Positions 3,228 to 32,515 of a stretch of 64,000 bases of DNA are shown one piece after another (the stretch's first letter is position 1; the number at the start of each line of letters is the position of its first letter). The notes under the pieces are model-generated. The model was not told the DNA's origin, did not search any database, and was given only the letters and a program-made list of their open reading frames with translations. Made by a program: the position numbers and the translations under genes. This stretch comes from Thermoanaerobaculia bacterium (GTDB lineage Bacteria > Acidobacteriota > Thermoanaerobaculia > Thermoanaerobaculales > Sulfomarinibacteraceae), in assembly GCA_027061805.1 (NCBI GenBank), contig JAMOWA010000068.1, positions 62,001-126,000 of the forward strand. The letters are read 5' to 3'.

Positions 3228-4268
3228 CTACCCAACGCCCTCCACCGCGCCGGCGAGCTTCGCCAGGAGGGACGAGGTGGGTACCCCGGGCTCCAGGGGA
3301 TCGGCCCAGATGCCATCACCATCCGGAAGCGCCTCCCCTTCCACCCGCCACACCACCGGGACCACCGTGATCCGCCGGTGTGTGATGCTGTGCCGCACCG
3401 GATCCGCGGCCCGCCCGCCGTCCAGGGGCAGACCCGCCGCCGCGCGGGCCGCTGCCACCGGGTCCACGTCGGCGCCGAGACCGGTGGCCAGGGGCGGCAG
3501 CCACAGCCCGCGGAGCACGGCGCCCCCGGTCACGGGCCGCAGCAGCCAGCGCCCCGAGGGGGAGACCACCACCGCGGCGGCCCAGCGGTGCGCCTCCGGC
3601 CCGCGTGTCCTCCTTGGCGGGGGGATGGCCTCCTGCCGCCCGGAGGCGAGCGCGGCGCACTCCCCGGCGAACGGGCACGCCCCGCAGTCCGGCCCACGCG
3701 GCGTGCAGACGGTGGCGCCCAGCTCCATGAGAGCCTCGTTGACCACCGCGGGCGGCGCCTCCTCCATGAGCGCCTCCACCCACGTCCGGATGGCCCCGCT
3801 CGCCGCCGCCCGCCTCGGGTCCCCCTCCAGGCCAAGCACCCTGGCACCCACCCGCAGCACGTTGCCGTCCAGCACCGCCACCCGCTCCCCGAAGGCCAGG
3901 GAGGCCACCGCCGCCGCCGTGTACGGCCCGATGCCCGGCAGCTCCCGGAGCCCGGCCGCCGAGCCGGGCAGGCGGCCACCGCGCTCCACCACCTCCCGCG
4001 CCAGGCGGTGGAGCGACCGCGCGCGCCGGTAGTACCCGAGGCCGGACCAGGCCTCCAGCACCTCCTCCTCCCGGACCTGCGCCAGGGACCGCAGGTCCGG
4101 GAAGCGCCGGAGGAACTCCCGGAACCGCGGTACGACCCGGTCCACCCGGGTCTGCTGGAGCATCAGCTCGCTCACCAGCACCCCGTAGGGATCCCGCGAC
4201 CCGCCCCGCCAGGGCAGGTCCCTGGCGCTGGCGGCGAACCATCGTGCGAGGCGTTTCCCGGGCGACAC
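3228..4268 (-). CDS. mutY: A/G-specific adenine glycosylase MutY
   Basis: A 346-residue base-excision glycosylase that removes adenine opposite 8-oxoguanine. Visible are catalytic E34 in SELMLQQT, the helix-hairpin-helix LPGIGPYTA at 110-118, catalytic D134 in LDGNVLRV, and the 4Fe-4S ligands C188, C195, C198 and C204 with C-x6-C-x2-C-x5-C spacing. A C-terminal NUDIX-like 8-oxoG recognition domain follows. The GTG at 4268 gives the usual length; the much longer open frame upstream is only the shadow of other genes. No partner gene is adjacent. Confidence 0.95.
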   Translation of the reverse strand: MSPGKRLARWFAASARDLPWRGGSRDPYGVLVSELMLQQTRVDRVVPRFREFLRRFPDLRSLAQVREEEVLEAWSGLGYYRRARSLHRLAREVVERGGRLPGSAAGLRELPGIGPYTAAAVASLAFGERVAVLDGNVLRVGARVLGLEGDPRRAAASGAIRTWVEALMEEAPPAVVNEALMELGATVCTPRGPDCGACPFAGECAALASGRQEAIPPPRRTRGPEAHRWAAAVVVSPSGRWLLRPVTGGAVLRGLWLPPLATGLGADVDPVAAARAAAGLPLDGGRAADPVRHSITHRRITVVPVVWRVEGEALPDGDGIWADPLEPGVPTSSLLAKLAGAVEGVG

Positions 4269-4313
4269 GCCGCGATTGTAGCGGGCCGGCTCCCCTCCCC
4301 GGGCTCCAGGTAG

Positions 4314-4319
4314 TAGAAT
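4314..4319 (+). promoter_or_regulatory. Candidate -10 box of the mtaD-like gene
   Basis: TAGAAT about 64 bases before the GTG start at 4383, in the gap divergent from mutY. The -35 region is not recognisable. Confidence 0.3.
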
Positions 4320-4382
4320 GTGGGCTCGGGCGCGTCCCGGCGGGCCCCCGCCCGCCCGACCGGCGCCCGGAGGGAGACGGCC

Positions 4383-5705
4383 GTGATCGCAACCACATCG
4401 TGGGACCTGCTCGTCTACGGCGGCACCGTGCTCACCCTGGAGCCCGGCTGCCGTGCCATCACCAACGGCGCCGTGGCCATCGCCGACGGGCGCATCGCCG
4501 CCGTGGGCCCCGCCGAGGCGCTCCTGGACCAGGCCCCCACGGGGGAGGTGCTGGACGCCACCGGCTGCCTGGTGATGCCGGGCTTCGTGAACACCCATTC
4601 CCACCTGGCCATGACGCTGCTCCGGGGCCTCGCGGACGACCTGCCCCTCAAGGACTGGCTCGAGGGGCATATCTGGCCCGCCGAGCGCGAGCACATGAAC
4701 CGGGAGACCATCCGCGTGGGGACGCTCCTGGCGGCCGCCGAGCAGCTCCTGGCCGGGGTCACCACCACCACCGACATGTACTTCTTCGACGACGAGGTGG
4801 GGACGGTCCTGGCCGAGGTTGGGATGCGGGCCGTGGTGGCCGAGTCCCTCCTGGACTTCACCACGCCGCGCTGCTCGGGCCCCGACGAGATGCTCGAGCG
4901 CCAGCGGGAGCTCATCGAGATGTTCCGTGACCACCCGCTGATCACGCCGGCCGTGGCGCCCCACTCGCCCTACACCGTCTCTGCGGCCAACCTGGTGCGG
5001 GAGGCCGAGCTGGCCGACGAGATGGACGTGCCGCTCCACATCCACCTGGCGGAGACCCGCTGGGAGGTGGAGAAGCTGCTGGAGGAGAAGGGGGTCTCGC
5101 CCGTGGCCTACCTGGCGGACCTGGGCGTGCTGTCCGAGCGGACCGTGGCGGCCCACTGCGTCCACGTCTCCCCGGAGGACATCGGGATCCTGGGCGAGTT
5201 CGAGGTGGGGGTCTCCCACAACCCCGTGAGCAACCTGAAGCTGGCCTCGGGCGTGTCCCCCGTCCCCACCATGCTGGAGGCGGGCGTCACGGTGGCGCTG
5301 GGCACCGACGGAACCGCCTCCAACAACACCCTCGACGTGCTCCGCGACATGCAGGTCGCCGCGCTCCTCCACAAGGGCACCGGTGGCCAGCCCACGGTGC
5401 TCCCCGCCCGGCAGGCCGTGGAGATGGCCACGGTGGACGGCGCGAAGGTCCTGGGGCTGGACGGCAGGATCGGCAGGCTGTCGGAGGGCATGGAGGCCGA
5501 CCTGGTCTGCCTCGACCTCACCGGAGCCCATGCCACCCCGCTGTACGACCACGTCTCCCACCTGGCCTACGCCGCCCGATCCTCCGACGTGCGGCACGTG
5601 CTGGTGCGGGGCAAGGTACTGGTGAACAACGGGGAGCTCCAGACCATCGACCTGGAGGAGGTCCGCACGAAGGCCGCCGAGATCGCCGAAAAGATCGCGG
5701 GATGA
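4383..5705 (+). CDS. mtaD: 5-methylthioadenosine/S-adenosylhomocysteine deaminase-like amidohydrolase
   Basis: A 440-residue metal-dependent TIM-barrel deaminase of the MtaD/TrzN/ATZ group, expected to deaminate MTA or SAH in methionine salvage. Metal and substrate ligands are H72 and H74 in NTHSHL, H219/H221 in HIHLAET, H258 in AAHCVH, and D309 in GTDGTASNN, in normal order. The GTG start has GGAGGGAGA about 6 bases upstream; a longer frame start lacks such support. The neighbour upstream is divergent and the sigma gene downstream is 45 bases away. The exact substrate is inferred from motif similarity and length. Confidence 0.9.
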   Translation: MIATTSWDLLVYGGTVLTLEPGCRAITNGAVAIADGRIAAVGPAEALLDQAPTGEVLDATGCLVMPGFVNTHSHLAMTLLRGLADDLPLKDWLEGHIWPAEREHMNRETIRVGTLLAAAEQLLAGVTTTTDMYFFDDEVGTVLAEVGMRAVVAESLLDFTTPRCSGPDEMLERQRELIEMFRDHPLITPAVAPHSPYTVSAANLVREAELADEMDVPLHIHLAETRWEVEKLLEEKGVSPVAYLADLGVLSERTVAAHCVHVSPEDIGILGEFEVGVSHNPVSNLKLASGVSPVPTMLEAGVTVALGTDGTASNNTLDVLRDMQVAALLHKGTGGQPTVLPARQAVEMATVDGAKVLGLDGRIGRLSEGMEADLVCLDLTGAHATPLYDHVSHLAYAARSSDVRHVLVRGKVLVNNGELQTIDLEEVRTKAAEIAEKIAG

Positions 5706-5750: not shown

Positions 5751-6380
5751 GTGAGCATGACCATGACCCTGCCGCAGAGTGAAGCCGCGAGCCTGCACCG
5801 GCTCTGGGTGGAGCGGGCCCAGGCCGGCGACGCCGAGGCCTGCGAGGAGCTCGCCCGGCACTGCCAGCGTCAGGCCTACCTCCTCGCCCTCCAGCTGACC
5901 GGAAACCGGGACGACGCCCTGGACCTCGCGCAGGACGCCATGATCCGCTTCTTCGGGGCCCTGTCGCGGTTCGACCGCAGGAGGCCCCTCCGGCCCTGGC
6001 TCTACCGCATCGTCCGCAACCTCTACAGGGACCGGCTGCGACGCCAGCGGCTGCGGCGCACCGAGCCGCTGGAGGCGGTGGCCCCCCTGGCCGTCGCCGA
6101 GGGGGGGAACCCGCAGCCCAGCCCGGAGGCCGTGGCCTCCCGCCACGAGCTGCAGCGCGTTGTCTGGGAGGAGGTCCAGAAGCTTCCTCCTCCCTTCCGG
6201 GAGATCGTCGTGCTCCGTGACTACCAGGACCTCGAGTACGCGGAGATCGCCCGCATCCTGCGGGTGCCCCGCGGTACCGTGATGTCCCGCCTGCACCGGG
6301 CCCGCCGCCGTCTCGCCGAGGCCGTCCGTGCCCGTGTGGCGTCGTCCGACGGCGCCGGGGAGGGCCAGGACCATGCGTGA
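5751..6380 (+). CDS. ECF-type RNA polymerase sigma factor
   Basis: A 209-residue sigma factor with region 2 (about 20-95; DDALDLAQDAMIRFF and RRPLRPWLYRIVRN) and region 4 (about 130-195; LPPPFREIVVLRDYQDLEY with an HTH and SRLHRARRRL). The GTG at 5751 follows a TATGAT box; in-frame ATGs at 5757 and 5763 are alternatives. Its stop overlaps the ATG of the zinc-finger anti-sigma gene, so the pair is translationally coupled. The signal it answers is unknown. Confidence 0.93.
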   Translation: MSMTMTLPQSEAASLHRLWVERAQAGDAEACEELARHCQRQAYLLALQLTGNRDDALDLAQDAMIRFFGALSRFDRRRPLRPWLYRIVRNLYRDRLRRQRLRRTEPLEAVAPLAVAEGGNPQPSPEAVASRHELQRVVWEEVQKLPPPFREIVVLRDYQDLEYAEIARILRVPRGTVMSRLHRARRRLAEAVRARVASSDGAGEGQDHA

Positions 6381-6812
6381 GCGCTGCCCCACCGGCCTCG
6401 AGGAGCGTCTCCTCACGGCGTACCTGGACGGTGAGCTCACCCAGGGCGGGATGCAGAAGGTGGAGGTCCACGTGGAGGCCTGTGCACACTGCCGGTCCCT
6501 CCTCGAGGACCTCTCCAGGATCCGGGAGGCCACCATGAACACGAGCTTCGCGACGCCACCCGACAACCAGTGGAACGAGCTGCCCCGGACCCCGGCGAGC
6601 GGCACCTTCCGCCGGCTGGGCTGGTGGCTGGTGATCCCCTGGCTGGTCCTCGTGATCGCCTGGGGACTGTGGGAGGCCTGGAAGGGCTCCGCCGGGGTCC
6701 TCGAGCGGGTCCTCGTCTTCGGCGGGATCGGCGGCGTGGTCCTGCTCTTCCTGTCCGTGCTGCTGGACCGGTTGCGGGATGCCGCCACCGATCGGTACCG
6801 GGAGGTGAACAG

Positions 6813-6816
<4 letters not shown>
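6373..6816 (+). CDS. Membrane anti-sigma factor with zinc-finger domain
   Basis: A 147-residue protein with an N-terminal zf-HC2 domain (YLDGEL, then H-x3-C-x2-C in VHVEACAHC at about 33-40) followed by two predicted transmembrane helices (about 80-101 and 110-130). It should hold the adjacent ECF sigma factor inactive at the membrane. The start overlaps the sigma stop by 8 bases. The short loop between the helices leaves little room for a periplasmic sensor, so sensing may be in the membrane or by a partner. Confidence 0.88.
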
Positions 6817-7136
<320 letters not shown>

Positions 7137-7194
7137 GCCGACGTCTCCGGTCCCGCGGACACCCGCCGGTCTCCCCATCGGCCACCGTCTGCGC

Positions 7195-7200
7195 TATCCT
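7195..7200 (+). promoter_or_regulatory. Candidate -10 box of the SCP2-like gene
   Basis: TATCCT 31 bases before the ATG at 7232. A GGGAGGGG ribosome site lies between them, so this gene, unlike several neighbours, has a normal leader. Confidence 0.35.
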
Positions 7201-7231
7201 GAGCGGAGAAGGCTGGCAACGGGAGGGGTGC

Positions 7232-7660
7232 ATGGCTGTGGAGATCTTCACCGACGAGTGGGCTCACGAGTGGTGCAGCAAGATCAACGGCAACGCCGCC
7301 TACGCCGACGCGGCGAGGCGGTGGGAGGGCGCCATCGTCCTCCAGATGTCCGCCGATGCGGACTGGGGCATCCCGGAGGACCGGTCGGTGATCGCCGACC
7401 TGTGGCACGGCGAGTGTCGGGGGGCGAAGGCCGCCACCGAGGACGACCTGGACGAGGCTCCCTACATCATCGCCGCCACGCCCGACACCTGGAACAAGGT
7501 GCTGTCCGGCGACCTCGACCCCATCGTGGCGCTCATGGGCGGCAAGCTCAAGCTCGCCCGGGGCAAGCTCTTCAGGCTGCTCCCCTTCACCAGGGCCGCC
7601 AAGGAGATGGTCGAATCCGCCAGGGCCGTGGACACCTCCTTCCCCGACGGCTGGCAGTAG
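7232..7660 (+). CDS. SCP2 sterol-carrier-type protein
   Basis: A 142-residue single-domain protein resembling the SCP2 lipid-binding fold: an N-terminal helix (FTDEWAHEWCSKIN), beta strands with WEGAIVLQM, and the C-terminal segment DPIVALMGGKLKLARGKL that closes the lipid tunnel. In bacteria such proteins bind hydrophobic ligands, but the ligand here is unknown. The ATG has GGGAGGGG 5-6 bases upstream. It is single and convergent with the wax-ester synthase gene across a repeat block, so a shared lipid role is only suggestive. Confidence 0.85.
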   Translation: MAVEIFTDEWAHEWCSKINGNAAYADAARRWEGAIVLQMSADADWGIPEDRSVIADLWHGECRGAKAATEDDLDEAPYIIAATPDTWNKVLSGDLDPIVALMGGKLKLARGKLFRLLPFTRAAKEMVESARAVDTSFPDGWQ

Positions 7661-7997
7661 GCAGCGGAACGCGACCCGGGGGGGACCACAACCTCTCGGC
7701 GCGTGGCGCAGGAACGCCCCCACGGGGAGCCCCGGCCTCCAGGCCGGCATCGTGCCCCCCCAGAACCCGGGAGACACCCTCCCGCCGAGCCACCTCGCCT
7801 CCACTCACCCAAAGCACGAGGCCGCGACTTTCGAGCGGCGCTCCCCCCACGACCTCCCCTCGGCAAACGCAAATGCGGCCCTACCCGCACGGGCGGATGG
7901 CCAAGTGCCATACGGGCGGGTGGCCGGCCGCCGCACATTCCCTTCGCCCTCATTCGTTTCACGTTTCACGTTTCACGACCCGACCGGCCGGCGCTCC
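7661..7997. repeat. Composite intergenic repeat, plus orientation (C-B-A)
   Basis: The gap between two convergent genes is filled by one full composite element: module C (GGCCTCCAGGCCGGCATCGT) at about 7711-7765, module B (GCACGAGGCCGCGACTTTCG) at about 7811-7880, and a TTTCACG array at about 7956-7977 with GC-rich flanks. No gene is seen. Confidence 0.85.
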
Positions 7998-9356
7998 CTA
8001 CCCCTCCCGCTTCTCGATCTCCTCCAGCAGGAGGTCGAGCTCGCCGTGGACGTGCTGGACCAGCGTGTCGGGATCCGGCACCAGGGCGGCGTCCACCGCC
8101 ACGCCCACCCGGACCTCGCCCGCGTAGCTGAAGATACTCACGCCCAGCCCCAGGCGGGCGGACTGCGGCACCCAGAACATCATGTTGCGGAGCTTGCAGC
8201 CGGCGAGATAGAGGTGCTTCCGCGGTCCGGGCACGTTGGTCATCACCAGGGTGGCCTTGCTTCCGAAAAAGTCCACGCCCAGGGCAAGCAGCTCCGGCCT
8301 GGCGATGCCCAGGAGCTGCAGCACACTGAACACCACGCCGGCCTCGGGCGACCTCTTGAGGCGATTCATCCGCCGGCGGACCGTGGCCAGGCGCTTCAGC
8401 GGATCGTTCAGTCCCACAGGCAGCGCCACGAACACCAGGCCAAAACGGTTCCCGAGCTCCCCCAGCTCCTCCTCGGGCCTGAGGTTCACGGGCAGTACCG
8501 CGTGGATGTCCTCGCCCTCCACACGGTCCCCCCTGCCGATGAGATACCGCCGCATGGCCCCCGTGGCCACCGCCAGGAGCACATCATTGACCGTTGCCCC
8601 CGCGATCTTCCCGATCCGCTTCACCTCGTCGAGGGAAACTGGCCCGGACCAGGCCGCCTTCTTGGTGATGGTGATCCGTCCCTTGAAGGCGGTCTTCGGG
8701 TCGGCAGGCCGCTGGACGAGCCGGGCCAGCACGCTGACGGCACCGGCTCCGCTCTGCACGAGCTCCGCGAGCTTCTCCGGGTTGACGAACGCCTCGCGGC
8801 CCTGGTTGACGAGCGCCGCAGGCAGGCTCCGCGCCCCGCCCGGCGAGGCCTTCCCCTTCTTGCGCACCACCGGCGGCGCCTCGGGCTCCTCGTCCGTGAG
8901 CGTGAACAGCAGCCGGACCAGCGCGATCCCGTCGCCGATGCAGTGGTGCAGCCGGATGATGATGGCGGTCCCCTCGCCGTAATCCTCCACCACGTGGATC
9001 TGCCACAGCGGCCGTGAGCGATCCAGCGGCGTGCTCATGAGGTCGCTCACAAGGTCCTGGAGTGCCTTCTGGTCCTGGGGTGCGGCAAGGGCCACCTTCC
9101 GCAGGTGGTACCGCAGCGTGAAGTGCTCGTCCTCCACCCACCTCGGCTTGCCGAGGGGCAGCACCGCCTCCAGCACCTTCTGGCGGAACCGATCGTGGAT
9201 CATGAGCCGGTCCTCGATGATCTCCTTGAGCCGGGCGAGCTCCACGCGCCCGTCCAGGACCATCAGCGCGGTGATGGTCATGAGGTTCGTGGAGTCCTCC
9301 ATCCGCAGCCATGCGCTGTCCACATTGTCCATGAGGACGCCATCCCGCCTGAACAT
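7998..9356 (-). CDS. Wax ester synthase/diacylglycerol acyltransferase
   Basis: A 452-residue acyltransferase of the WS/DGAT family, which moves acyl-CoA groups onto fatty alcohols or diacylglycerol to form storage lipid. The catalytic HHxxxDG motif is at 137-143 (HHCIGDG). A conserved N-terminal SAWLRMED block and the later VNDVLL and GPRKHLYLAG segments fit the family, as does length. ATG 9356, GTG 9362 and TTG 9365 are all possible; AAGGTGAGG lies just upstream. It is divergent from the phasin gene, suggesting a shared storage-inclusion role. Confidence 0.93.
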   Translation of the reverse strand: MFRRDGVLMDNVDSAWLRMEDSTNLMTITALMVLDGRVELARLKEIIEDRLMIHDRFRQKVLEAVLPLGKPRWVEDEHFTLRYHLRKVALAAPQDQKALQDLVSDLMSTPLDRSRPLWQIHVVEDYGEGTAIIIRLHHCIGDGIALVRLLFTLTDEEPEAPPVVRKKGKASPGGARSLPAALVNQGREAFVNPEKLAELVQSGAGAVSVLARLVQRPADPKTAFKGRITITKKAAWSGPVSLDEVKRIGKIAGATVNDVLLAVATGAMRRYLIGRGDRVEGEDIHAVLPVNLRPEEELGELGNRFGLVFVALPVGLNDPLKRLATVRRRMNRLKRSPEAGVVFSVLQLLGIARPELLALGVDFFGSKATLVMTNVPGPRKHLYLAGCKLRNMMFWVPQSARLGLGVSIFSYAGEVRVGVAVDAALVPDPDTLVQHVHGELDLLLEEIEKREG

Positions 9357-9570
9357 GCTCACCAAACCTCACCTTCCCCGCATGGACCACGGACTCCTCT
9401 CGGCCCCTTCCGCTCGACCTGGAACGCATCCAGTGGGTGCTCCATGATACCAGGAGGCCTTCCGGTCGGTCCCTGCCGGCATTCTCCGGATTGCCACATC
9501 GCGGCATCACCCGTCGGACTATCAGGGATCAGACTTGCAACCTGTTGCTCTCCTGGGACAAAAATATTTG

Positions 9571-9645
9571 CCGCAATGCGGTATTCCGGGTTGACACCCT
9601 TGCCGCAGTGCGTTATGTTCTTCTCGTGGATGCCGCAGAGCGGCA
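9571..9645 (+). promoter_or_regulatory. Three phased operator palindromes at the phasin promoter
   Basis: Three related palindromes: CCGCAATGCGG at 9571-9581, CCGCAGTGCGT at 9603-9613 and TGCCGCAGAGCGGCA at 9631-9645. Their centres, 9576, 9608 and 9638, are 32 and 30 bases apart, about three helical turns. The middle one lies inside the -35/-10 spacer, so a bound protein should repress. The arrangement recalls PhaR-type autoregulation of phasin genes, but no phaR gene is in the window. Confidence 0.7.
9591..9619 (+). promoter_or_regulatory. Strong sigma-70-type phasin promoter
   Basis: TTGACA at 9591-9596, a 17-base spacer, and TATGTT at 9614-9619. This is the best consensus promoter in the window and contains the middle operator. 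Confidence 0.75.
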
Positions 9646-9679
9646 AGCAACAACGCAACGGAGCACAGGGGAGGTCACC

Positions 9680-10150
9680 ATGGCTGCGAAGAAAGTTTCC
9701 AGGACGAACGTCAAGAGAATCCAGAACGATGTGATGGAGTCGGCCCACAAGGTGTGGCTGGCCGGGCTCGGCGCGCTGGCCACCGGCCAGGAAAAGGGCG
9801 GCGAGCTGTTCGAGGAGCTGGTGAGAAAGGGCGCCGCGCTGGAGAGCGCGGGCAAGGAGCAGGTGGAGAAGGCCAGGGAAACCGCGCTGGGCACCGTCAC
9901 CGGCGTGAAGGCCGTGGCGGAGAGCTACTGGGAGACCTTCGAGAAGAAGATCGACGAGCGCCTGACCGGCGTGATCCACACCCTGGGCGTGCCCACCAAG
10001 GACGAGATCGAGGCCCTCACCAGGAAGGTGGAGGAGCTGACCAGGACCATCGAGAAGCTCCAGAAGAAGGACACCCCGGCCCGCAAGCCCGCCGCCAAGA
10101 GGCCTGCGACCGCAACCAGGAAGACCGGTGCCAAGAAAACCACCAAGTGA
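9680..10150 (+). CDS. Phasin, polyhydroxyalkanoate granule-associated protein
   Basis: A 156-residue protein of the PhaF/PhaI type. The N-terminal ESAHKVWLAGLGALATGQEKG block and the following amphipathic helices (to about 130, with a coiled-coil stretch VEELTRTIEKLQ) are typical of granule surface proteins. The C-terminus is a short lysine/alanine/threonine-rich tail like the DNA-binding tail of PhaF. The ATG has GGGGAGG upstream. It has a strong promoter with three operators and a clear terminator, so it is a single, regulated transcript. It could instead coat wax-ester or triacylglycerol droplets, given the divergent acyltransferase. Confidence 0.92.
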   Translation: MAAKKVSRTNVKRIQNDVMESAHKVWLAGLGALATGQEKGGELFEELVRKGAALESAGKEQVEKARETALGTVTGVKAVAESYWETFEKKIDERLTGVIHTLGVPTKDEIEALTRKVEELTRTIEKLQKKDTPARKPAAKRPATATRKTGAKKTTK

Positions 10151-10184
10151 CCTCTGACGCCGGCAACGGCGTGATGGAAACCAC

Positions 10185-10211
10185 GGGGCGCCCTCGGGCG
10201 CCCCTATTTTT
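10185..10211 (+). terminator. Rho-independent terminator of the phasin gene
   Basis: GGGGCGCCC at 10185-10193 pairs with GGGCGCCCC at 10196-10204, followed by TATTTTT. Confidence 0.9.
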
Positions 10212-10244
10212 CGCTCCCCACAGCCGGGGGCAATCCCTTCTCCC

Positions 10245-10372
10245 ATCATCCCGAGCGGAGTGACACGCAGTCCCTCCTCCCTCTGTCATCCCGAGCGGAG
10301 CAGCCGCAGCCCCCTACCTGTCATCCCGAGCGAAGGCCCGCAGGGCCGGAGTCGAGGGATCTCCCGAACGAA
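10245..10372. repeat. TCATCCCGAGC-type repeats, three copies
   Basis: TCATCCCGAGCGGAG at about 10246-10260 and 10285-10300, then a fuller copy at 10319-10364 ending in GAGGGATCTC. The same element recurs as an inverted pair at 22.19-22.33 kb. Confidence 0.75.
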
Positions 10373-10810
10373 GCCGCCACCTCCATTTCCGAACGCCCTC
10401 CACGGGAGGGTGGGTGTCGCACGGCCGGAGGTTCGGGCGCCGCACACCCCCTTCGCCCTCTTTCGTTTCACCTTTCACGTTTCACGTCTCACGATCCGAC
10501 CGGGCGGCGCTCCCCCCACGACCTCCCCTCGGCGAACGCGAATGCGGCCCTCCCTGCACGGGCGGCCTGGGGGCGCGCCCTGAAGGACGCGCCTACACTT
10601 TCAGATCCAGCGACCCAGCCCCGTCCAAATCCCAGCAATCCTCAGAATCCGTGGTTGCCAGTCCCGGGTGGGAGGGTGGGTGTCGCACGGGCGGAGGGCC
10701 GGTCGTCCCACATCCCCTTCGCCCTCTTTCGTTTCACCTTTCACCTTTCACGTTTCACGACCCGGTCGGGCGGGGGCATCGCACCTCGTACGGCCGGGCG
10801 GGCGCCGCAC
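10373..10810. repeat. Composite repeat fragments and two heptamer arrays
   Basis: TTTCAC(G/C) arrays at about 10467-10490 and 10728-10760, a module B fragment at about 10510-10570, and GC-rich GGGCGG linkers. The intervening stretch 10570-10660 holds no recognised feature. No gene is supported. Confidence 0.75.
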
Positions 10811-10814
10811 CCCC

Positions 10815-10961
10815 TCTCCCCTGCACCCTTGCTCCCCTGTTCCCCTGCTCCTCTGCTCCCCTGCTCCCCTGTTCCCCTGCTCCCCTGCACCCTTGCTCCC
10901 CTGTTCCCCTGCTCCCCTGCTCCCCTGCTCCCCTGCTCCCCTGCTCCCCTGCTCCCCCTCT
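10815..10961. repeat. CTCCCCTG octamer tandem array
   Basis: About 18 near-perfect copies of an 8-base unit, with variants such as TTCCCCTG and CACCCTTG. It ends just before the GTACAAT at about 10964-10970. Short seeds of the same octamer occur near 2643, 22360, 46050, 46810 and 58430. Confidence 0.9.
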
Positions 10962-11033
10962 CGCGTACAATGGTCCTCGGCATTTTCGCCCGGACGTGTA
11001 ACCGCCGGGCGTCCCGGACACCAGGGAGGAGCA

Positions 11034-11591
11034 GTGGACGACCTCTCGCCCGACCAGAAGCGCCTGGTCACCCTGATGGTCGGCTACCAGAAGGGGAACA
11101 TGGACGACTTCGCCGTGCTTTACGCGGAGCTCGAGCAGCCGTTGCGCCGCTACCTCTGGACCTTCGTCCGCGACACCGCGACCGTGGACGACCTCCTCCA
11201 GACCACCTTCCTCCAGGTCCACCGCGCCCGCCACACCTACACGCCGCCCCGGCCTGTCAGGCCCTGGCTCTATGCCATCACCCGGCACACCGCTCTCATG
11301 CACCTGCGCTCGAGGCGGCGCCGGAAGGAATACCTGGCTGACGAGGACCTCCCCGAGGTTCCCGTTCCGCCCGAGGTGGAGCGGCTCGGCGACCGGCTCA
11401 TGGTGCGGAAGCTTCTCCTGGAGCTTCCGCGGTCGGACCGCGAGATCCTGACACTCCACCACCTCATGGGGCTCAGCTTTGCCGAGGTTGCCAGCGTGGT
11501 GGGCATCTCGGCCGGGGCTGCCAAGGTGCGGGCCCACAGGGCCATCAGGTCCCTCCGTGAGAGGCTTGCGTCCGAAGGAGCCGAACGATGA
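11034..11591 (+). CDS. ECF-type RNA polymerase sigma factor (second)
   Basis: A 185-residue sigma factor. Region 2 includes LEQPLRRYLWTFVRDTATVDDLLQTTFL and RPVRPWLYAITRHTAL; region 4 includes LPRSDREILTLHHLMGLSFAEVASVV and AKVRAHRAIRSLRE. The GTG start at 11034 is preceded by GGGAGGA at 11024-11030; the longer frame upstream is repeat DNA. The stop overlaps the next start (ATGA). An NrsF-type partner suggests control by a membrane anti-sigma factor. Confidence 0.93.
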   Translation: MDDLSPDQKRLVTLMVGYQKGNMDDFAVLYAELEQPLRRYLWTFVRDTATVDDLLQTTFLQVHRARHTYTPPRPVRPWLYAITRHTALMHLRSRRRRKEYLADEDLPEVPVPPEVERLGDRLMVRKLLLELPRSDREILTLHHLMGLSFAEVASVVGISAGAAKVRAHRAIRSLRERLASEGAER

Positions 11592-12253
11592 CCGGACATC
11601 CGCTTCCCGAGGCTCTCCGGAAGGCCGTGGAGGCCGATTCCCGCCCGGTCCGGGCGCTCCCGGCCCTGTGGCGGAGAATCCTGGCCATCGTCATCGCGGC
11701 CGTGGCGCTGCTGGCCGCCGTGGTGGTCACCCACACCCTGCGGCCGGACCTCGAGACCCTCTCCATCTGGCTTGGCTGGGGCGCCACCATCGTGGAGATC
11801 ATCGTGGGCATCTCCCTCATCGGGCTGGCCCTGCGCGAATCCGTCCCCGGACAGGCCATCCCACGTCCGGCCGTCGCCATCGCCGTCGCCACCGGTCTCG
11901 TGGTCAACTTCCTTGTGGCCATCGCCACCTGGGTGGGCACGAAAGGCAGCGGCATGACGGGCATGCCCGGCTGCGGTGTCATCTGCATGCGCACGGGGAT
12001 CTGGATTGCCATCCCCGCCGTGCTCGTCACGCTCATCCTCGTCCTGCGCGCCCTGCCCCTGCGCCCCTGCGTGGTCGGCCTTCTGGGCGGCGCCGGCGCC
12101 GGGCTCATGGCCGACGGTATCAACCACCTCCTGTGCCCTCTCTCCGACCTCCGCCATGTGCTCGTGTGGCACACCGGAGCCATCCTCTGCCTCATGGCAG
12201 CCGGCTGGCTCGCCGGGAAGACCTGGGAGATCCTCCGGTCGAGGAGGGGCTGA
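11588..12253 (+). CDS. NrsF/DUF1109-type membrane anti-sigma factor
   Basis: A 221-residue integral membrane protein with about six transmembrane helices (roughly 29-48, 58-78, 89-110, 134-153, 155-175, 190-210) and a short cytosolic N-terminus. Length, topology and position after an ECF sigma gene match the NrsF/DUF1109 family. Cysteines in GMPGCGVICMRTG (about 127-133) and NHLLCPL could be a redox or metal sensing site, as proposed for family members. The start overlaps the sigma stop by 4 bases. Confidence 0.85.
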   Translation: MTGHPLPEALRKAVEADSRPVRALPALWRRILAIVIAAVALLAAVVVTHTLRPDLETLSIWLGWGATIVEIIVGISLIGLALRESVPGQAIPRPAVAIAVATGLVVNFLVAIATWVGTKGSGMTGMPGCGVICMRTGIWIAIPAVLVTLILVLRALPLRPCVVGLLGGAGAGLMADGINHLLCPLSDLRHVLVWHTGAILCLMAAGWLAGKTWEILRSRRG

Positions 12254-12590
12254 GGGAGCACGGGGCCGGTTTCCTCCCGGCGAGCCACCTCTCCTCCGCT
12301 CGCCCCATGCACGAGGCCGCGACTTTCGAGCGGCGCTCCTTGTCACGACTCTCCCTCGGTGAACGCGAGAACCGCCCCCCTTGAACACAACCAGGCATCC
12401 GAAGAGAGCACGCGCCCACAGGGAGCGCCGGCCTCCAGGCCGGCATCGTGCGCTACACAGAACCCGGGCGACGTACTCTCTGAGCACGACGTCTCCTCCG
12501 CTCGCCCCATGCACGAGGCCGCGACTTTCGAGCGGCGCTCCCTGCCACGACCTTCCCTCGGCGAACGCGAATACGGCCCTCCCTGCACGG
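12254..12590. repeat. Composite repeat modules B and C-B
   Basis: A module B copy at about 12295-12365, then module C at about 12410-12470 and a second module B at about 12500-12580, all in plus orientation. No gene is supported. Confidence 0.8.
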
Positions 12591-12999
12591 GCGGAGGTCC
12601 GGGCGTCGCACCTCCCCTTGCCCTCCTTCGTTTCACGTTTCACGTTTCACGTTTCACGACTCGGGCGGGCGGGCGTCGCACGGGCGGAGGTCCGGGCGTC
12701 GCACGGGCGGAGGTCCGGGCGTCGCACCTCCCCTTCGCCCTCTTTCGTTTCACGTTTCACGTTTCACGTTTCACGACCCGGGCGGGCGGGCGTCGCACGG
12801 GCGGAGGTCCGGGCGTCGCACCTCCCCTTGCCCTCCTTCGTTTCACCTTTCACGTTTCACGTTTCACGACCCGGGCGGGCGGGCGTCGCACGGGCGGAGG
12901 TCCGGGCGTCGCACCTCCCCTTCGCCCTCTTTCGTTTCACGTTTCACGTTTCACGTTTCACGTTTCACGACCCGGGCGGGCGGGGGCATCACACCTCGC
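12591..12999. repeat. Four tandem heptamer-array units
   Basis: TTTCACG arrays at 12631-12658 (4 copies), 12748-12775 (4), 12841-12868 (4, one variant) and 12935-12969 (5). The arrays start 117, 93 and 94 bases apart and are joined by nearly identical linkers with GGGCGGAGGTCCGGGCGTCGC. The first linker carries this phrase twice, which explains the longer spacing. Confidence 0.92.
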
Positions 13000-26001: not shown

Positions 26002-27066
26002 TCAAACCGTTCCGGTGCTCCCGGCACCGGGGCACGGCACACCGATCTGGGGCCCCGGCTCGTCCACTCCCGGGAGCATCGCATCGAGTCTGTCGAGTGT
26101 TCTCGCCATCTCCTGGTCTTCCACCCGCCGGCGAACGCCCCGCATCACCCAGCCCGTCACGGTCACCGGGTGCTTGCCAAGAACCTGCGCCATGTCCTTG
26201 ACCCGGATCCCCCACCTCTCAACACCCAGCATGGCCACGAGCTCCCGTGCCCTCGAGAGGCGCTCGCCGCGCCCACGACCCTGCAGCTCCTCCACCCCCA
26301 CCCCGATCGCTCCGGCAACCCGCGCCACGAACTCTTCCGCCCCGATCACCGGCCGTTCCCTCTGGGCCCGCGCGGCCGCTTCTTTCCGCCTGGATCTCCC
26401 GGAATCCTCCGGATCCTCCAGGTCCCCGCGGGAAGGCCGCCCCAGGCGCCACCATGGCAGCCGCCCGGGATCCTCTCCGGTCCACGCCTCCTCTCGCGCC
26501 CCGCGCAGCATCCTCGTGTATGCCCCCCGCGCCGCCCTCCGGCTCTCTCCGAAGAGTCGCAGCACCTCGTCCACGTCCACGATCGGCTTCTTCCTCAGTC
26601 CGAGCACGTCCCGGTGCCCGCTCCACCGGTACCGCGCCGGATCGTCCACGAGCCCGGCTACCACCGGGTTGAGGTGGATGTACGCCACCAGCCGGTCCAG
26701 GTATCGCTGATCCCGGACAAGCTTCGCCCGGTACCGCCCCTGCCACAACGGCCCGTACACCCGGGCCGACCTGTTCACCGAGCGCGCGGTCCGCCACTGC
26801 AGCGTCTTGATCGTCCTACCCAGCGGCACCACCCCCGTCCCCACCGCCAGATGGTAGTGGTTCGGCAACAGCGCCCACGCAAACACCGTCACCCCGTCCC
26901 GCTCCACCACCTCCCGCAACAACTGCACGAACTCCGCAGCCCTCCCGTCCTCCTCGAAGACCCTCTCCCCCCGTGCCAGCCGGTTGTACACGTGAAACAC
27001 CGCCCCATCGAAATGAATCCTCTGCGCCCGCGGCATCGCCATCGCCGCCTGCCAGCACCTTAACAT
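26002..27066 (-). mobile_element. REP-associated tyrosine transposase (RAYT)
   Basis: A 354-codon frame encoding a Y1 transposase of the IS200-like RAYT group. Present are FHVYNR near the N-terminus, the HUH metal motif in LLPNHYHLAV (about 67-76), the block YGPLWQGRYRAKLV, and the tyrosine region YIHLNPVVAGLVDDPARYRWSGH (about 128-150). A long basic linker leads to a C-terminal helix-turn-helix like that of DnaA (about 300-335). The true start may be the Met at residue 9 or 11. Such enzymes are thought to spread REP sequences, relevant to the repeats in this window. Confidence 0.9.
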
Positions 27067-27172
27067 TACTTTCTTATACCTAGCGCTTTACGAGTACGAG
27101 CCCCTTTAACTTGGTGACGCCAACGCTGTGCTGTGTTCCTGAGCGCCATCTATGGGGTAGCATCTTTCCTTT

Positions 27173-28672
27173 CTATTCATTGTCCAACAGGCCTTGGATA
27201 CCTCTAAGCCATATTTCAATCTTCTTTGGCACAGTCATGTCAGGGTTCTTAATGTCAAACTCACTCCACAAAAATCCCTGAAGGTCTGCGGGTAATTTAG
27301 AGTTCTTGTCCTTCAACAAAAGGACATCTTGACCGCGTGATTTGAAAAACCCAAACTCAAGAGCTACATTTGGATTTGAAAATAAGCGTACCTCGTCCTT
27401 CTTTAATCTATCCACAACAGGTTCTGATACGTACACCGCTATACCATACTTTGCTGACAGCATGTTAATAATCAAATTGTCCCACAACCTATCGGAGTAT
27501 ATCCTATCGGCGTCATCTACTCGTATGGCTCTGTAGCCCCAACGTTGGCACTCTGCTTTGATTACCTCCGTCAGTTTCCGATATTCAATGTCTGTTTCAA
27601 ACGGCATCATCAGAAATACTGTCTTGTCAAAAGCCTGCTTATCCCAGATTTTCTCTAAAGTGGTATTGTAAACAGAAAAGGCCTCATGAATAGAACCATA
27701 GCGTTCCAAGAAGGCGCGCAATCTAGCGCTTGTTTGAAGTGCTTTATATCGTGTATTCCTATAATCACTATGGACAAGTCGATTTACAGAATACGCAATA
27801 TCTACTTCACCAGCCGCTTCGCACCGTTGAATACCTACTATAGCCGCCCTAGCAATGGATTCTAAAAATAGAGACTCTGAAAAATGCGGACGCACGCTCA
27901 TTATGGACTGCGGTATACCCTCAGGCGTTTTAGACAGTTCGAAAAGCCCCACAAGAACGTCATCTATTGTATCTCTATATCCTCCGACGACCGAATCAAT
28001 CATCATAAGATCTTCCAAAAGAAACAAACGATCTACAAGAAGCAGTGATGCGTTTGTATTAGATGATTCTATTTCATTCTCTATTAGACCTGCAATCTCT
28101 TGTAATAGCTTTGTATGTTCTGGAACATACTTTGCGAGCAGAAGGCCAAGAAATCCAAGTTGTGACAAAGACGTACATCCAACGCTCCTACGTTTAATCA
28201 GATAGTCGAATGCGAGATCGATTTCCGATTCAAACACCTTCCTCGAATACTGACAAAGGATTTTCACCGACCAAAGAGTGCTGAAATAGTCGCCTCCATG
28301 TAAATACGCTGTGAATACGGGTATAGATCCATCCTTCAATTGATGTTCAGCGATTCCGGAACGAAGCATGTCCTCTTGGGTTGACGCGTGTGGGCGAATT
28401 CGAGTGAGAGAATCCAATGCAAATGGATGGTTCGAATACCCATTGTCCGGATCTAACAACCATAGCATAGCCGACGATATACCATCAGCAAATACAGCCG
28501 GATCAAGTCTAGCTAATAGTTCTACTAGGTGGTGCGTCGCCGGCACGTCAACACTGACTGCACCATCAACATTACTGGTTCGGATAATACCATCAGGACC
28601 GGCCTCAAGCATCATAGACAACGCGAGCTGCTCAGCATGAGTGCGCAAGTTATGGAGTTCAGTATCCTTCAT
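27173..28672 (-). CDS. AT-rich TIR-like domain protein, probable defence gene
   Basis: A 499-residue protein in a segment far more AT-rich than its surroundings, so recently acquired. Residues about 350-480 form a TIR/nucleoside-deoxyribosyltransferase-like domain (VFLMMPF, DRLWDNLIINML, NPNVALEFGF, then LPADLQGF); E439 is the candidate catalytic glutamate. The N-terminal 340 residues are helical. One part (HQLKDGSIPVFTAYLHGGDY) recalls alpha/alpha-toroid repeats, but I cannot assign a family. It stands alone, near restriction-modification genes. It may cleave NAD+ on phage infection; this is inference. Confidence 0.7.
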   Translation of the reverse strand: MKDTELHNLRTHAEQLALSMMLEAGPDGIIRTSNVDGAVSVDVPATHHLVELLARLDPAVFADGISSAMLWLLDPDNGYSNHPFALDSLTRIRPHASTQEDMLRSGIAEHQLKDGSIPVFTAYLHGGDYFSTLWSVKILCQYSRKVFESEIDLAFDYLIKRRSVGCTSLSQLGFLGLLLAKYVPEHTKLLQEIAGLIENEIESSNTNASLLLVDRLFLLEDLMMIDSVVGGYRDTIDDVLVGLFELSKTPEGIPQSIMSVRPHFSESLFLESIARAAIVGIQRCEAAGEVDIAYSVNRLVHSDYRNTRYKALQTSARLRAFLERYGSIHEAFSVYNTTLEKIWDKQAFDKTVFLMMPFETDIEYRKLTEVIKAECQRWGYRAIRVDDADRIYSDRLWDNLIINMLSAKYGIAVYVSEPVVDRLKKDEVRLFSNPNVALEFGFFKSRGQDVLLLKDKNSKLPADLQGFLWSEFDIKNPDMTVPKKIEIWLRGIQGLLDNE

Positions 28673-28731
28673 TTACCCTAGTTCCTTTCTCCTATAAACA
28701 ATATCCTGATCGCAACTATACTAGTAAGTTC

Positions 28732-29103
28732 TCAGCTAACGTCAACCCGGCGTTCCCTATTAATGTCAAGCCACCGATTGGAGTTGTTGAGCCCTGTACT
28801 GGGGGGGCTGAGGTAGTCCAGCGCTTGGTGCGTTCGGCCCTGGTTGTACCACTCGATCCACTTGCGGATGACTTGGCCGGCCTCCTCGAAGGTCTCGAAG
28901 CGGTGTTGCCACACGCACTCCTCCTTTAAGCTCCGGAAGAACCGTTCGGCGAGACCGTTCTGCTCTGGCGTGTACGGGGTGATGTACTCCTGCTCTAAGG
29001 GGCGGGCTCCTGCAACTGAGGTTTCGTCCCTCAGGATGCTGAGCACCAGAGCAGATCGCCGCTTGGCCGTCCAACGCTTCTCGTCATCTGGTAGATCCGT
29101 CAT
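28732..29103 (-). pseudogene. Internally deleted IS3-family transposase remnant
   Basis: A 123-codon frame that begins like orfA (TAKRRSALVLSILRDETSVA) and, after a short junction near residue 30-35, continues as the end of orfB (ITPYTPEQNGLAERFFRSLKEE, then WIEWYNQGRTHQALDYLSP). All of the HTH and most of the DDE core are missing. It cannot be active alone but could be moved in trans if its ends remain; I could not fix the terminal inverted repeats. Confidence 0.75.
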
Positions 29104-29399
29104 ATCTCGTTCCCTCCGGCTGGGCCGGCAGGGCCTGAGGACTTGTGGAAAGCTGGCCTCCAACTACCCTGCCTCCACCTTCCCACAGTCTTCGCAAGCC
29201 CGACAACGAGGCGTCTCTCCTCACCAGTCCACATGTATTATTGGTGGCCCAGCCCCAGAGGGGAGCAGGATACCCTTGCAGCTCGCAACCACGTTGAGGC
29301 GAAAGACATAGTGGTGGCATCAGACGACCTTCCAGGCCTCTCTGGCGGCGGCCATGGTTTCCTACAAACCAGGGTTGGTACACTGGCTCTGGGGAGAGG

Positions 29400-29918
29400 A
29401 TGAAGAATCTGGGCTCTGGGACGTCGAACTTGCCAAAGGTTACCACGAAGGCACCATCCTTCAAGGGTCGACGACCATCGTCGAGCCGGGCGAGCCTAGC
29501 AGCCAAAGGTAGCAGTAAGAAACGTGATACATCGTGCGAAGTCCTGCTGAGGCGGGCTCTTTGGCGGCGAGGGTTACGTTATCGGATCAACGTCGAGGAT
29601 CTGCCGGGGAAACCGGACATCGTCTTCCGCAGAGCGAAGGTGGTCGTGTTTGTCGATGGCGATTTCTGGCATGGCAAGGACTGGGAGGTGCGAGAGTCAC
29701 GGCTCCGGTCGGGATCCAACGCTGATTATTGGGTTGCGAAGATCAGCCGGAACAGAGAACGGGACGTCCGCAACACGGCGCTTCTCGAAGCGGAAGGATG
29801 GACCGTCCACCGGTTCTGGGAGACTGAGATCAAGGCGGATGTTGAGCTGGTAGCCGATAAGGTGGCTGCCAGCGTGACTCGGGGAAGGACCGGGAGGCAC
29901 GGCCCGGAGGTTTATTGA
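29400..29918 (+). CDS. vsr: Very-short-patch repair endonuclease
   Basis: A 172-residue Vsr-type endonuclease, which nicks at T:G mismatches made when 5-methylcytosine deaminates. Visible motifs are EVLLRRALWRRGLRYR, KPDIVF, VFVDGDFWHGKDW and NRERDVRNTALLEAEGWTVHRFWE, in Vsr order. About 45 extra residues precede the usual start, so translation may begin later. It lies 62 bases before a C5-methyltransferase, as expected for its role. Confidence 0.92.
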   Translation: MKNLGSGTSNLPKVTTKAPSFKGRRPSSSRASLAAKGSSKKRDTSCEVLLRRALWRRGLRYRINVEDLPGKPDIVFRRAKVVVFVDGDFWHGKDWEVRESRLRSGSNADYWVAKISRNRERDVRNTALLEAEGWTVHRFWETEIKADVELVADKVAASVTRGRTGRHGPEVY

Positions 29919-29953
29919 CAATATTGGCGGCAGGTGTAAAAATGGTGTAAAAT
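29915..29953 (+). promoter_or_regulatory. Methyltransferase promoter with direct repeats
   Basis: TTGACA at 29915-29920, then TAAAAA at 29937-29942 (16-base spacer). Two direct repeats GGTGTAAAA start at 29933 and 29944, 11 bases apart. The second contains another possible -10 (TAAAAT, 29948-29953). The layout could bind a regulator or the methyltransferase itself. Confidence 0.45.
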
Positions 29954-29980
29954 GAAAAAGGAAAGGGAACAAGACGTACG

Positions 29981-31270
29981 ATGTTGAACGTCATCAGCCT
30001 CTACACCGGCGCGGGCGGACTTGACCTAGGTTTTGAGGCGGCCGGATTTGAAGTGGCCGTCGCCGTCGAGATGGATTCGGAAGCGGTGGCGACGCTCCGC
30101 CAGAACCGTGACTGGCCGGTGATTGAACGTGACATCCATCAGGTGACCTCGCGCGAGATCCTAGAGACGGCTGGGCTTCGTGAGGGCGATGCCGATGTGC
30201 TGATAGGAGGTCCCCCTTGCCAACCCTTCTCCAAGGCAGGGTACTGGGCCAACGGGGATACGCTCCGCTTGGACGATCCCCGTGCCGGGACCATGGCCGC
30301 TTACCTTCGAGTCCTCCGCGATACTTTGCCTCGAACTTTCTTTCTGGAGAACGTTCCGGGGCTCACGTACCGCGGCAAGAGCGAGGGGATCGAGCTGATC
30401 CTGCGTACAATCGAGAAAATCAACGCCGAACGAGGTGTCTCCTACAACCTGCGCTACCGTCAGGTCAACGCAGCGTCGTTTGGGGTGCCCCAACTTCGTG
30501 AGCGGGTTATTGTCGTTGGCTCGAGAGAGGGTGTGTCATTCGAGTTTCCGCTCCCCACGCACGGTCCCGTCGAAGCTTCGGCAGACTTGGCCGCCGTCGA
30601 GCCCTTCATGACCGCGTGGGATGCTATCGGCGACCTTGAGGACGATGACGGCCCGGAGCTTCGGGTTCGTGGCAAGTGGGCCGACCTTCTCCCCACGATT
30701 CCCGAAGGGGAGAACTACCTTTGGCATACAGACCGTGGCGGTGGGTTGCCACTTTTTGGCTGGAGGCGCCGGTACTGGAGTTTCCTACTAAAGCTGGCCA
30801 AGGCGCGCCCGTCCTGGACTATCCAAGCTCAGCCTGGCCCTGCGGTCGGGCCGTTCCACTGGAAAAGCCGCCGCCTGTCCGCTCGTGAGCTGTGCCGCCT
30901 TCAAACCTTCCCAGACGATTATAGAATCGTTGGCAAGCTCTCTTCGGTTCAACGTCAGCTCGGCAATGCTGTCCCCGCGGCTCTCGCTGAGGTGATCGCC
31001 CGCAAGATCCGCGCCGATCTTCTTGGAGATCCTGTGGATCTCAGACCCACATTGATTCCAGCCCGGCGTGGCATCGCTCCGGCCCCCGAGCCGATCCTTC
31101 CCGTTCCCGACAAGTACCTTCACCTCGTAGGAGATCACGAACCTCACCCCGGTACGGGTAAGGGGTACGCTGCCAGGAAACGTCACGTGGTTCGTTTGGA
31201 CGCTTCCGACGAAGTCAGCGAGGGCCTCCCTTTCGTTTCTCCCGCCACTTCGAAAGCTTCTCAGGCTTGA
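29981..31270 (+). CDS. DNA (cytosine-5-)-methyltransferase
   Basis: A 429-residue C5-methyltransferase. Motif I is SLYTGAGGLDLGF at 6-18, motif IV GGPPCQPFS with catalytic C80, motif VI ENVPG at 123-127, motif VIII QLRERV, and motifs IX-X RELCRLQTFPDDY and QLGNAVPAALAEVIA. The C-terminal 70 residues are a Pro-rich extension. The target site cannot be read from sequence. Its 3' end overlaps the restriction gene tail to tail by 56 bases. Confidence 0.95.
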   Translation: MLNVISLYTGAGGLDLGFEAAGFEVAVAVEMDSEAVATLRQNRDWPVIERDIHQVTSREILETAGLREGDADVLIGGPPCQPFSKAGYWANGDTLRLDDPRAGTMAAYLRVLRDTLPRTFFLENVPGLTYRGKSEGIELILRTIEKINAERGVSYNLRYRQVNAASFGVPQLRERVIVVGSREGVSFEFPLPTHGPVEASADLAAVEPFMTAWDAIGDLEDDDGPELRVRGKWADLLPTIPEGENYLWHTDRGGGLPLFGWRRRYWSFLLKLAKARPSWTIQAQPGPAVGPFHWKSRRLSARELCRLQTFPDDYRIVGKLSSVQRQLGNAVPAALAEVIARKIRADLLGDPVDLRPTLIPARRGIAPAPEPILPVPDKYLHLVGDHEPHPGTGKGYAARKRHVVRLDASDEVSEGLPFVSPATSKASQA

Positions 31271-31964
31271 CCGCCTGAGCCCTCCAATACGTGTTGAACT
31301 CCTCTTCTGAGGAGAAAGCCCCAGCTTCTCTCCGTAGCGCATCGATCTCTGACACCGCCGCGATATAGCAGCGTGTACCACTTGAGCGTTTTCTCGTCGC
31401 CACACGCCACTTCTCTACAACGATCAGCTCAACGTTCTTCGCAGTAGTTTCCACATAATCGTACAGAGCGATGAGGGCAAGGTGAGCCGCATAGCTTGAA
31501 TATGGCATCTCGATGTTAGCGACTTTGTCGTCGGGGTAGTGGAAGTACTCTGCATCGAAGGTTCCAATCGTGATCGAGTACGATGTCTTGTCACCCTTGG
31601 CGTTACGGCGAGCACATTTGATATCTACGGCGAACCGATTTGGAGAGATCAGGGGCCCGTTGAACGTGAAGTCAGGATAGGTTCGGTCACTTGAAGCCGG
31701 GATGCAAACAAGTTCATCCACCTGCAACAGCCGGCGCCTAAGGTAATGCTTGATGGAGATTTCCAACACCTTACCCACAACGGCCGCTTCACGAGGCAAC
31801 GGCTCAATACTGCCGTCGTTGAGGAGCAAACCCTTGACGTCGAACTCATATCCCACAACAAGGCCCCGCAGCAACTCTTTGAAACTCTCCACGGGCTGCT
31901 TTGGGTCATAGAACAATCCACCACGCTTCACAATGGACCTCCCAGGGGTCCCATCATAGACCAC
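31215..31964 (-). CDS. EcoRV-family type II restriction endonuclease
   Basis: A 249-residue enzyme close in length to EcoRV (245). The active site TYPDF...AVDIK gives D98, D114 and K116; the 16-residue spacing between the acids equals that of EcoRV D74, D90, K92. Also shared are GYEFDVKG at the start, PYSSYAAHLALIALYDYV in the middle, and EKW...SSEEEFNTYWR at the end. The recognition-loop region (RKRSSGTRCY) differs, so the target may not be GATATC. The GTG start at 31964 is the only good one. It pairs with the convergent C5-methyltransferase. Confidence 0.85.
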   Translation of the reverse strand: MVYDGTPGRSIVKRGGLFYDPKQPVESFKELLRGLVVGYEFDVKGLLLNDGSIEPLPREAAVVGKVLEISIKHYLRRRLLQVDELVCIPASSDRTYPDFTFNGPLISPNRFAVDIKCARRNAKGDKTSYSITIGTFDAEYFHYPDDKVANIEMPYSSYAAHLALIALYDYVETTAKNVELIVVEKWRVATRKRSSGTRCYIAAVSEIDALRREAGAFSSEEEFNTYWRAQAVKPEKLSKWREKRKGGPR

Positions 31965-32336
31965 ACCACACGGCCTTGGCTGGTTCCTCTAACCCGCTAG
32001 CGAAACATCATCGTCCGGGAATGAGCGGTTGCCAGATAACCTCTGTGGGTTGTGAGGGGATCCACCGTTTACCGCAGACCGCATGAAGGACTGCATGTCA
32101 GGTACCACACCCACACAACGTGGTCCAGAAACCACCACTTCCCAATCCGCCCGCAGAAGCTGGACCCGGGGGGCCGGGGAAGGTCGTCGCGAGGCGTTCC
32201 GGCGGGGTCCAGATGTGGCGATGAAGATGAAGGCGTGGCGGGTAGGGCCTGGTACTCGCTACCTTCAGGTCACCTGAACACCCCTGTCGAAGGAAATCGT
32301 GCTCCCTTGGACACCGCCTCCGCTCAACAGAGCCGA
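31965..32336. other. Gap of about 370 bases with no gene
   Basis: No supported reading frame. A stretch at about 32165-32205 (GGGGAAGGTCGTCGCGAGGCG) is similar to part of the left arm of the palindrome that follows and looks like a degenerate copy. Confidence 0.5.
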
Positions 32337-32515
32337 GCCCGGCGGGCGGGGAGGGGTTCGTCGCGAGCGCCGCGAGACGGTGCGGGATCTGGCGTTTGTC
32401 GCCGCCCGAACGAATGAGGCGTAGCAGCGCTACGCCGCAGTGAGAGAGGGCAAGAAAACGCCGGAGACCGTGCCGAATCGCGGGGCGCAGCAGAAGCCAT
32501 CCCCGCCCGCCGGGC
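32337..32515. repeat. Nested 179-base palindromic element
   Basis: Outer arms GCCCGGCGGGCGGGGA at 32337-32352 and its exact complement at 32500-32515. An inner imperfect arm pair lies at 32371-32397 and about 32453-32479 (about 20 of 27 matching). A central perfect hairpin GGCGTAGC-AGC-GCTACGCC is at 32418-32436. It directly follows the last gene of the large minus-strand operon and marks its border with the defence segment. Confidence 0.8.

Follow-up and report, generated by a model that had tools for sequence, protein, structure and literature searches.

EcoRV is a textbook restriction enzyme, and its family, as sampled here, keeps one type of methyltransferase partner and one recognition loop outside the clade described below, apart from a partly changed loop in halovirus HGTV-1. 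At 29400-31964 of the window (the whole stretch of 64,000 nucleotides that was analysed), an EcoRV-family nuclease gene is found beside genes for a C5 cytosine methyltransferase and a Vsr endonuclease. This raises the question of which site the nuclease and the methyltransferase share, and how they came to be combined. A natural EcoRV homologue of changed specificity would let the acquisition of new sites by restriction enzymes be studied by direct comparison.

Gene arrangement and genomic setting

The locus opens with an intact gene for a Vsr-family T:G mismatch endonuclease (29400-29918, + strand, 172 aa; PF03852, 83.4 bits, cut-off 27; TIGR00632, 122.4 bits, cut-off 97.85). It is followed by M, a C5 cytosine DNA methyltransferase (29981-31270, + strand, 429 aa; PF00145, 191.9 bits), and by R, a type II restriction endonuclease of the EcoRV family (31215-31964, - strand, 249 aa from a GTG start; PF09233). 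R and M are convergent and overlap by 56 bases; together with the Pfam and TIGR matches, this bears out an earlier note on this DNA, which had described an EcoRV-type nuclease convergent with a C5 enzyme and adjoined by Vsr. A sigma-70-like promoter (TTGACA, 17, AAAAAT) was found by consensus scan directly 5' of M (29915-29943, + strand); the scan gave three promoter-like sites between 29300 and 32100, with 0.6 expected, a count that says nothing on function.

The GC content of the region from 26 to 32 kb is 53-59%, compared with 65-70% in its flanks (24-26 kb and 32-36 kb) and a maximum of 74% elsewhere in the window. Since an IS200-like transposase gene and a fragment of an integrase also lie in this low-GC region, it looks acquired. 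A protein of 499 aa whose C-terminus carries a TIR-like domain (27173-28672, - strand; PF10137 CAP12-PCTIR, 27.1 bits, cut-off 24.7) is probably the product of a further defence gene of the same island.

Fold and active site of R

R matched the Pfam family Endonuc-EcoRV (PF09233) with 85.1 bits (cut-off 25; E 6.7e-24) and, among PDB sequences, EcoRV chains (E 7.6e-13). All of the top 39 PDB matches of its predicted structure (pLDDT 70, pTM 0.71) were likewise EcoRV. Residues D98, D114 and K116 are invariant in an alignment of eight sequences and align with D74, D90 and K92 of EcoRV with the same spacing (16+2), just as the earlier note had read them. With E68 at the position of E45, all four catalytic residues of EcoRV (E45, D74, D90 and K92) are kept. 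The assigned GTG may not be the start codon of R, since a homologous fragment opens with MRFDPNRPVESFK; the true start may be a TTG near 31916 (residue 17).

Methyltransferase partners of EcoRV-family nucleases

A Dam-family adenine methyltransferase adjoins the nuclease in 13 of 16 distinct EcoRV-family loci (L002-L006, L010-L016 and L018), in agreement with the statement of the earlier note that EcoRV works with an adenine methyltransferase. Two loci, the window and L017, have a C5 methyltransferase. In halovirus HGTV-1 (L007) the genes lying up to about 4 kb to the left and right of the nuclease include no recognised methyltransferase, and three undescribed or nuclease neighbours gave no methyltransferase match against Pfam. 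The plasmid records of EcoRV-type systems included here were five of nine (all four from outside E. coli and one of the five from E. coli). In the tree of R, the window grouped with L017 (100/99); HGTV-1, whose branch is long, joined this pair next (99/98). An adenine methyltransferase elsewhere that protects the site of R would, according to the earlier note, have spoken against its reading. The D12 and N6_N4 families gave no match in the source genome, which is 96.85% complete, so that within these two Pfam families no Dam-type enzyme for protecting GATATC was found. No statement of an EcoRV-family nuclease paired with a C5 methyltransferase was found in the literature searched, which covered this pairing, relatives of Ecl136II and Eco53kI, and M.SacI; REBASE lay outside that search.

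The same convergent order of R and M occurs on a contig of a Thermoanaerobaculaceae metagenome-assembled genome that was reached by two routes (L009/L017) and belongs, within the same order, to a different family and genus. Its R is 63-64% and its M 73% identical to the copies in the window. Judged by this recurrence of the convergent arrangement in a second genome of the order, R and M are a genuine pair. Truncated pieces of R were found in two genomes of the family to which the window belongs (78% identity over 59 residues and 63% over 57), and no match to M was found in the stretches fetched around them. The distribution of PF09233 is patchy: it was matched in 2 genomes among 59 near relatives and in 8 among 396 members of the phylum (the source genome being counted in both). 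A search of viral contigs with the single sequence of R yielded nothing, and an alignment-based search yielded only halovirus HGTV-1.

Nuclease partners of the M clade

Besides the source genome, 3 of 347 genomes of a phylum sample contained relatives of M (54-59% identity), and relatives at 52-67% identity were found on nine viral contigs; 80 M loci from viral contigs were kept, and neighbours were scored for 13 of them (L088-L100). The tree of M was built from 22 of 24 alignment rows (L021 and L085 omitted; the row of L094 trimmed to 430 residues) and placed M in a clade of 14 members, including the window and L017, with support of 100/100. Five of the 14 have a SacI-family nuclease (RE_SacI) beside M (L034, L090, L091, L092 and L095), two an MTaX1-type nuclease (L033 and L094) and two the EcoRV-type nuclease (window and L017). 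No nuclease was found beside M in the other five (L035, L088, L089, L093 and L096); in L035, L089 and L096, M lies at the edge of the available sequence. The tree did not resolve the branch order within the clade. RE_SacI (PF09566) had no match in the source genome, nor did a search of plasmids with the RE_SacI protein of L034 give one.

Reassortment is well supported, as members of this one M clade stand beside nucleases of three unrelated families and EcoRV-family nucleases are otherwise paired with Dam-family enzymes. It makes the M clade a clear case of partner exchange, with three nuclease families serving one modification module. The MTaX1-domain nucleases (L033, 4213-5442; L094, about 3829-5001) have a PD..ECK-like motif and lie beside M and Vsr; they form a third nuclease type, predicted to share the site of M.

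Residues 230-296 of M (30668-30868, + strand), delimited as the target-recognition core by conservation among 13 close relatives, are 78-88% identical to these relatives whatever the nuclease, compared with 46-75% for the N-terminal half. As the core was also more conserved than the catalytic half in 9 of 10 more distant rows, at lower identity, this pattern supports one shared site without proving it.

Changed recognition elements in R

Thirty-seven alignment columns were invariant in 13 adenine-paired members of the EcoRV family, and 14 of them differed in both C5-paired members. None of the 14 is catalytic; set beside the residue-by-residue list of EcoRV base contacts, eight of them belong to K38, the Q-loop and the R-loop (D36, K38, Q69, G182, N185, T186, N188 and G190). 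The position of K38, a lysine in 13/13 adenine-paired relatives, is occupied by A61 in the window (codon at 31782-31784, - strand, placed by alignment) and by serine in L017. The R-loop reads GSGNTxNIG in 13/13 adenine-paired members and SSGTRCYIA in both C5-paired ones (in R residues 194-202, 31359-31385, - strand, by alignment), T186 being replaced by an arginine, R198, in both. The nuclease of HGTV-1 (L007, 3962-4555) carries N185T but retains T186, N188 and G190. Its recognition loop is intermediate in these residues, and the enzyme perhaps serves host DNA degradation.

According to the review PMC4081073, the R- and Q-loops of EcoRV read the bases, the R-loop contacting in the major groove the pairs outside the two central ones, while K38 inserts into the minor groove and breaks the stacking of the central TA, a deformation that GC pairs at the centre are unlikely to permit. 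Loss of this lysine is thus consistent with a GC-centred site. The exchanges N185T and T186R exceed the needs of GAGCTC, because the outer pairs contacted by the R-loop are common to GATATC and GAGCTC; that R198 reads the central G is speculation. It is very likely that the site of R differs from GATATC.

Predicted site and alternative explanations

In PMC4725820, M.SacI is described as a C5 methyltransferase of GAGCTC; placing its methyl group on the inner cytosine is our interpretation of the product positions given there. As the M clade accompanies SacI-family nucleases and M.SacI methylates GAGCTC, this hexamer is the predicted site, M being tied to M.SacI through the RE_SacI neighbours of its clade and not by comparison with the sequence of M.SacI itself. 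That R and M share GAGCTC seems to us somewhat better than an even chance.

The explanation that we favour, and consider probable, is a reassorted type II restriction-modification module. An EcoRV-fold nuclease would have joined a C5 methyltransferase, with Vsr, from a clade that more often accompanies SacI-family nucleases; its usual adenine-methylating partner would have been lost and the C5 enzyme would protect instead. M would methylate the inner cytosine of GAGCTC, and a dimer of R, using the PD-(D/E)xK site of EcoRV, would cut the unmodified sequence in the middle (GAG^CTC), blunt ends being predicted from the geometry of EcoRV. Vsr would repair the T:G mismatches that arise from deamination of 5-methylcytosine. 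Enzymatic activity, the position of the cut and the part played by Vsr are inferred, as is the site. Of the two possibilities raised in the earlier note, a new specificity or a reassorted system, the second is well supported, given the three nuclease families. The first is supported relative to EcoRV, whose base-contacting loops are changed in R, but not as a new site, M pointing to the known GAGCTC.

Compared with the EcoRV system of E. coli plasmids (e.g. pLG13), R shares the fold, the catalytic residues, PF09233 and the predicted blunt cut in mid-site. The E. coli system has a Dam-family adenine methyltransferase, K38 and GSGNTTNIG, whereas the window has a C5 methyltransferase with Vsr, A61 and SSGTRCYIA. 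GATATC-specific systems of the EcoRV type are marked by K38, Q69, GSGNTxNIG and a Dam-family partner, none of which is present in the window. With the SacI system (GAGCTC, M.SacI) the locus shares the predicted site and a methyltransferase whose clade is most often found with SacI-family nucleases, but the SacI nuclease belongs to PF09566 and R, with its predicted blunt cut, to the EcoRV-fold family PF09233. SacI cuts GAGCT^C, while Ecl136II, Eco53kI and EcoICRI cut GAG^CTC. The latter three thus have the predicted site and cut position of R, a likeness by site and not by sequence; should they prove EcoRV-like, the system of the window would be of an already known kind.

Whether the module recognises a site other than GAGCTC, new or known, was weighed against several observations. 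The SacI association of M would then reflect common descent followed by drift of specificity, which we regard as unlikely, although the R-loop residues that read outer bases are altered beyond the needs of GAGCTC. Among hexamer palindromes, GTCGAC shows the strongest avoidance in the source genome (28 seen, 73.2 expected, ratio 0.38, in 357 kb) and a weaker one in three relatives taken together (103 seen against 121.3 expected); this avoidance could also come from the other C5 methyltransferase system of the same genome, and the 78-88% identity of the M core over 13 relatives and three nuclease families speaks against such drift. Avoidance of the site, tried as a means of finding it, lent no support to GAGCTC, which is found in the host as often as expected (463 occurrences against 464 over 357 kb; z rank 46 of 64), as would be the case if the system had arrived recently, were inactive or had a different site. 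Its absence from the island (26500-32500) is uninformative, as only 1.6 to 2.4 occurrences were expected. The C5-paired clade of R comprises two members only, which also counts against the favoured explanation. The Pfam name RE_SacI was dropped as sole proof of the site: two SacI-family nucleases (L062 and L063) lie beside adenine methyltransferases that are D12-like by motif reading of the sequence, so that the family name alone fixes neither site nor methyltransferase. The SacI family, too, would seem to have switched its methyltransferase type.

It is highly improbable that R cuts GATATC as EcoRV does, with the C5 enzyme protecting through the outer cytosine. GATATC does contain a cytosine, and fold and catalytic site are those of EcoRV; however, eight otherwise invariant recognition positions are altered in both C5-paired members, and the clade of M accompanies other nucleases. 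We also think it very unlikely that M and Vsr form a solitary or regulatory methylation unit with R as an unrelated or inactive neighbour. Such an arrangement would agree with the five of 14 M relatives beside which no nuclease was found and with the R remnants for which no accompanying M was found in two genomes of the window's own family, but two genomes of different families each have an intact R, with all catalytic residues, next to M.

A further proposal, which we hold to be evenly balanced, is that the EcoRV scaffold, whose hexamer is TA-centred, was re-targeted in nature to one with a GC centre alongside the adoption of a GAGCTC C5 methyltransferase. The K38 wedge would have been lost and the R-loop rebuilt, so that indirect readout of a bent TA step gave way to direct readout, for which R198 is a candidate. 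If true, nature would here have made a change of specificity that PMC4081073 deems unlikely to result from changing individual contact residues.

Vsr and other T:G repair partners

A Vsr relative lies beside M in the window, L033, L094 and L096, the copy of L033 being 49% identical to that of the window. In E. coli Vsr, a structural zinc is bound by C66, H71, C73 and C117. Vsr of the window lacks these ligands, its cysteine positions being replaced in the alignment, as do its relatives encoded next to M in L033 and L094. L017 has an HhH-GPD glycosylase gene beside M in the place of Vsr (3296-4117, - strand). The T/G glycosylase of the Mig.MthI type pairs with M.MthTI. The L017 gene product, a putative glycosylase, resembles such repair partners by family and position only (PMC2714593), whereas the window has Vsr. 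Vsr and the HhH-GPD glycosylase, which are unrelated repair enzymes, thus seem, from gene neighbourhood, to be interchangeable partners of one C5 methyltransferase clade.

The source genome encodes one further C5 methyltransferase, on contig C59 (L085, C59:62000-75000; locus at 5957-12596). After it come an HhH-GPD glycosylase gene, whose product shares 38% identity with that of L017, a gene for a protein matching DrmE_C below threshold and one for a NERD/UvrD helicase; together they make up a DISARM-like system with its own candidate T:G repair enzyme.
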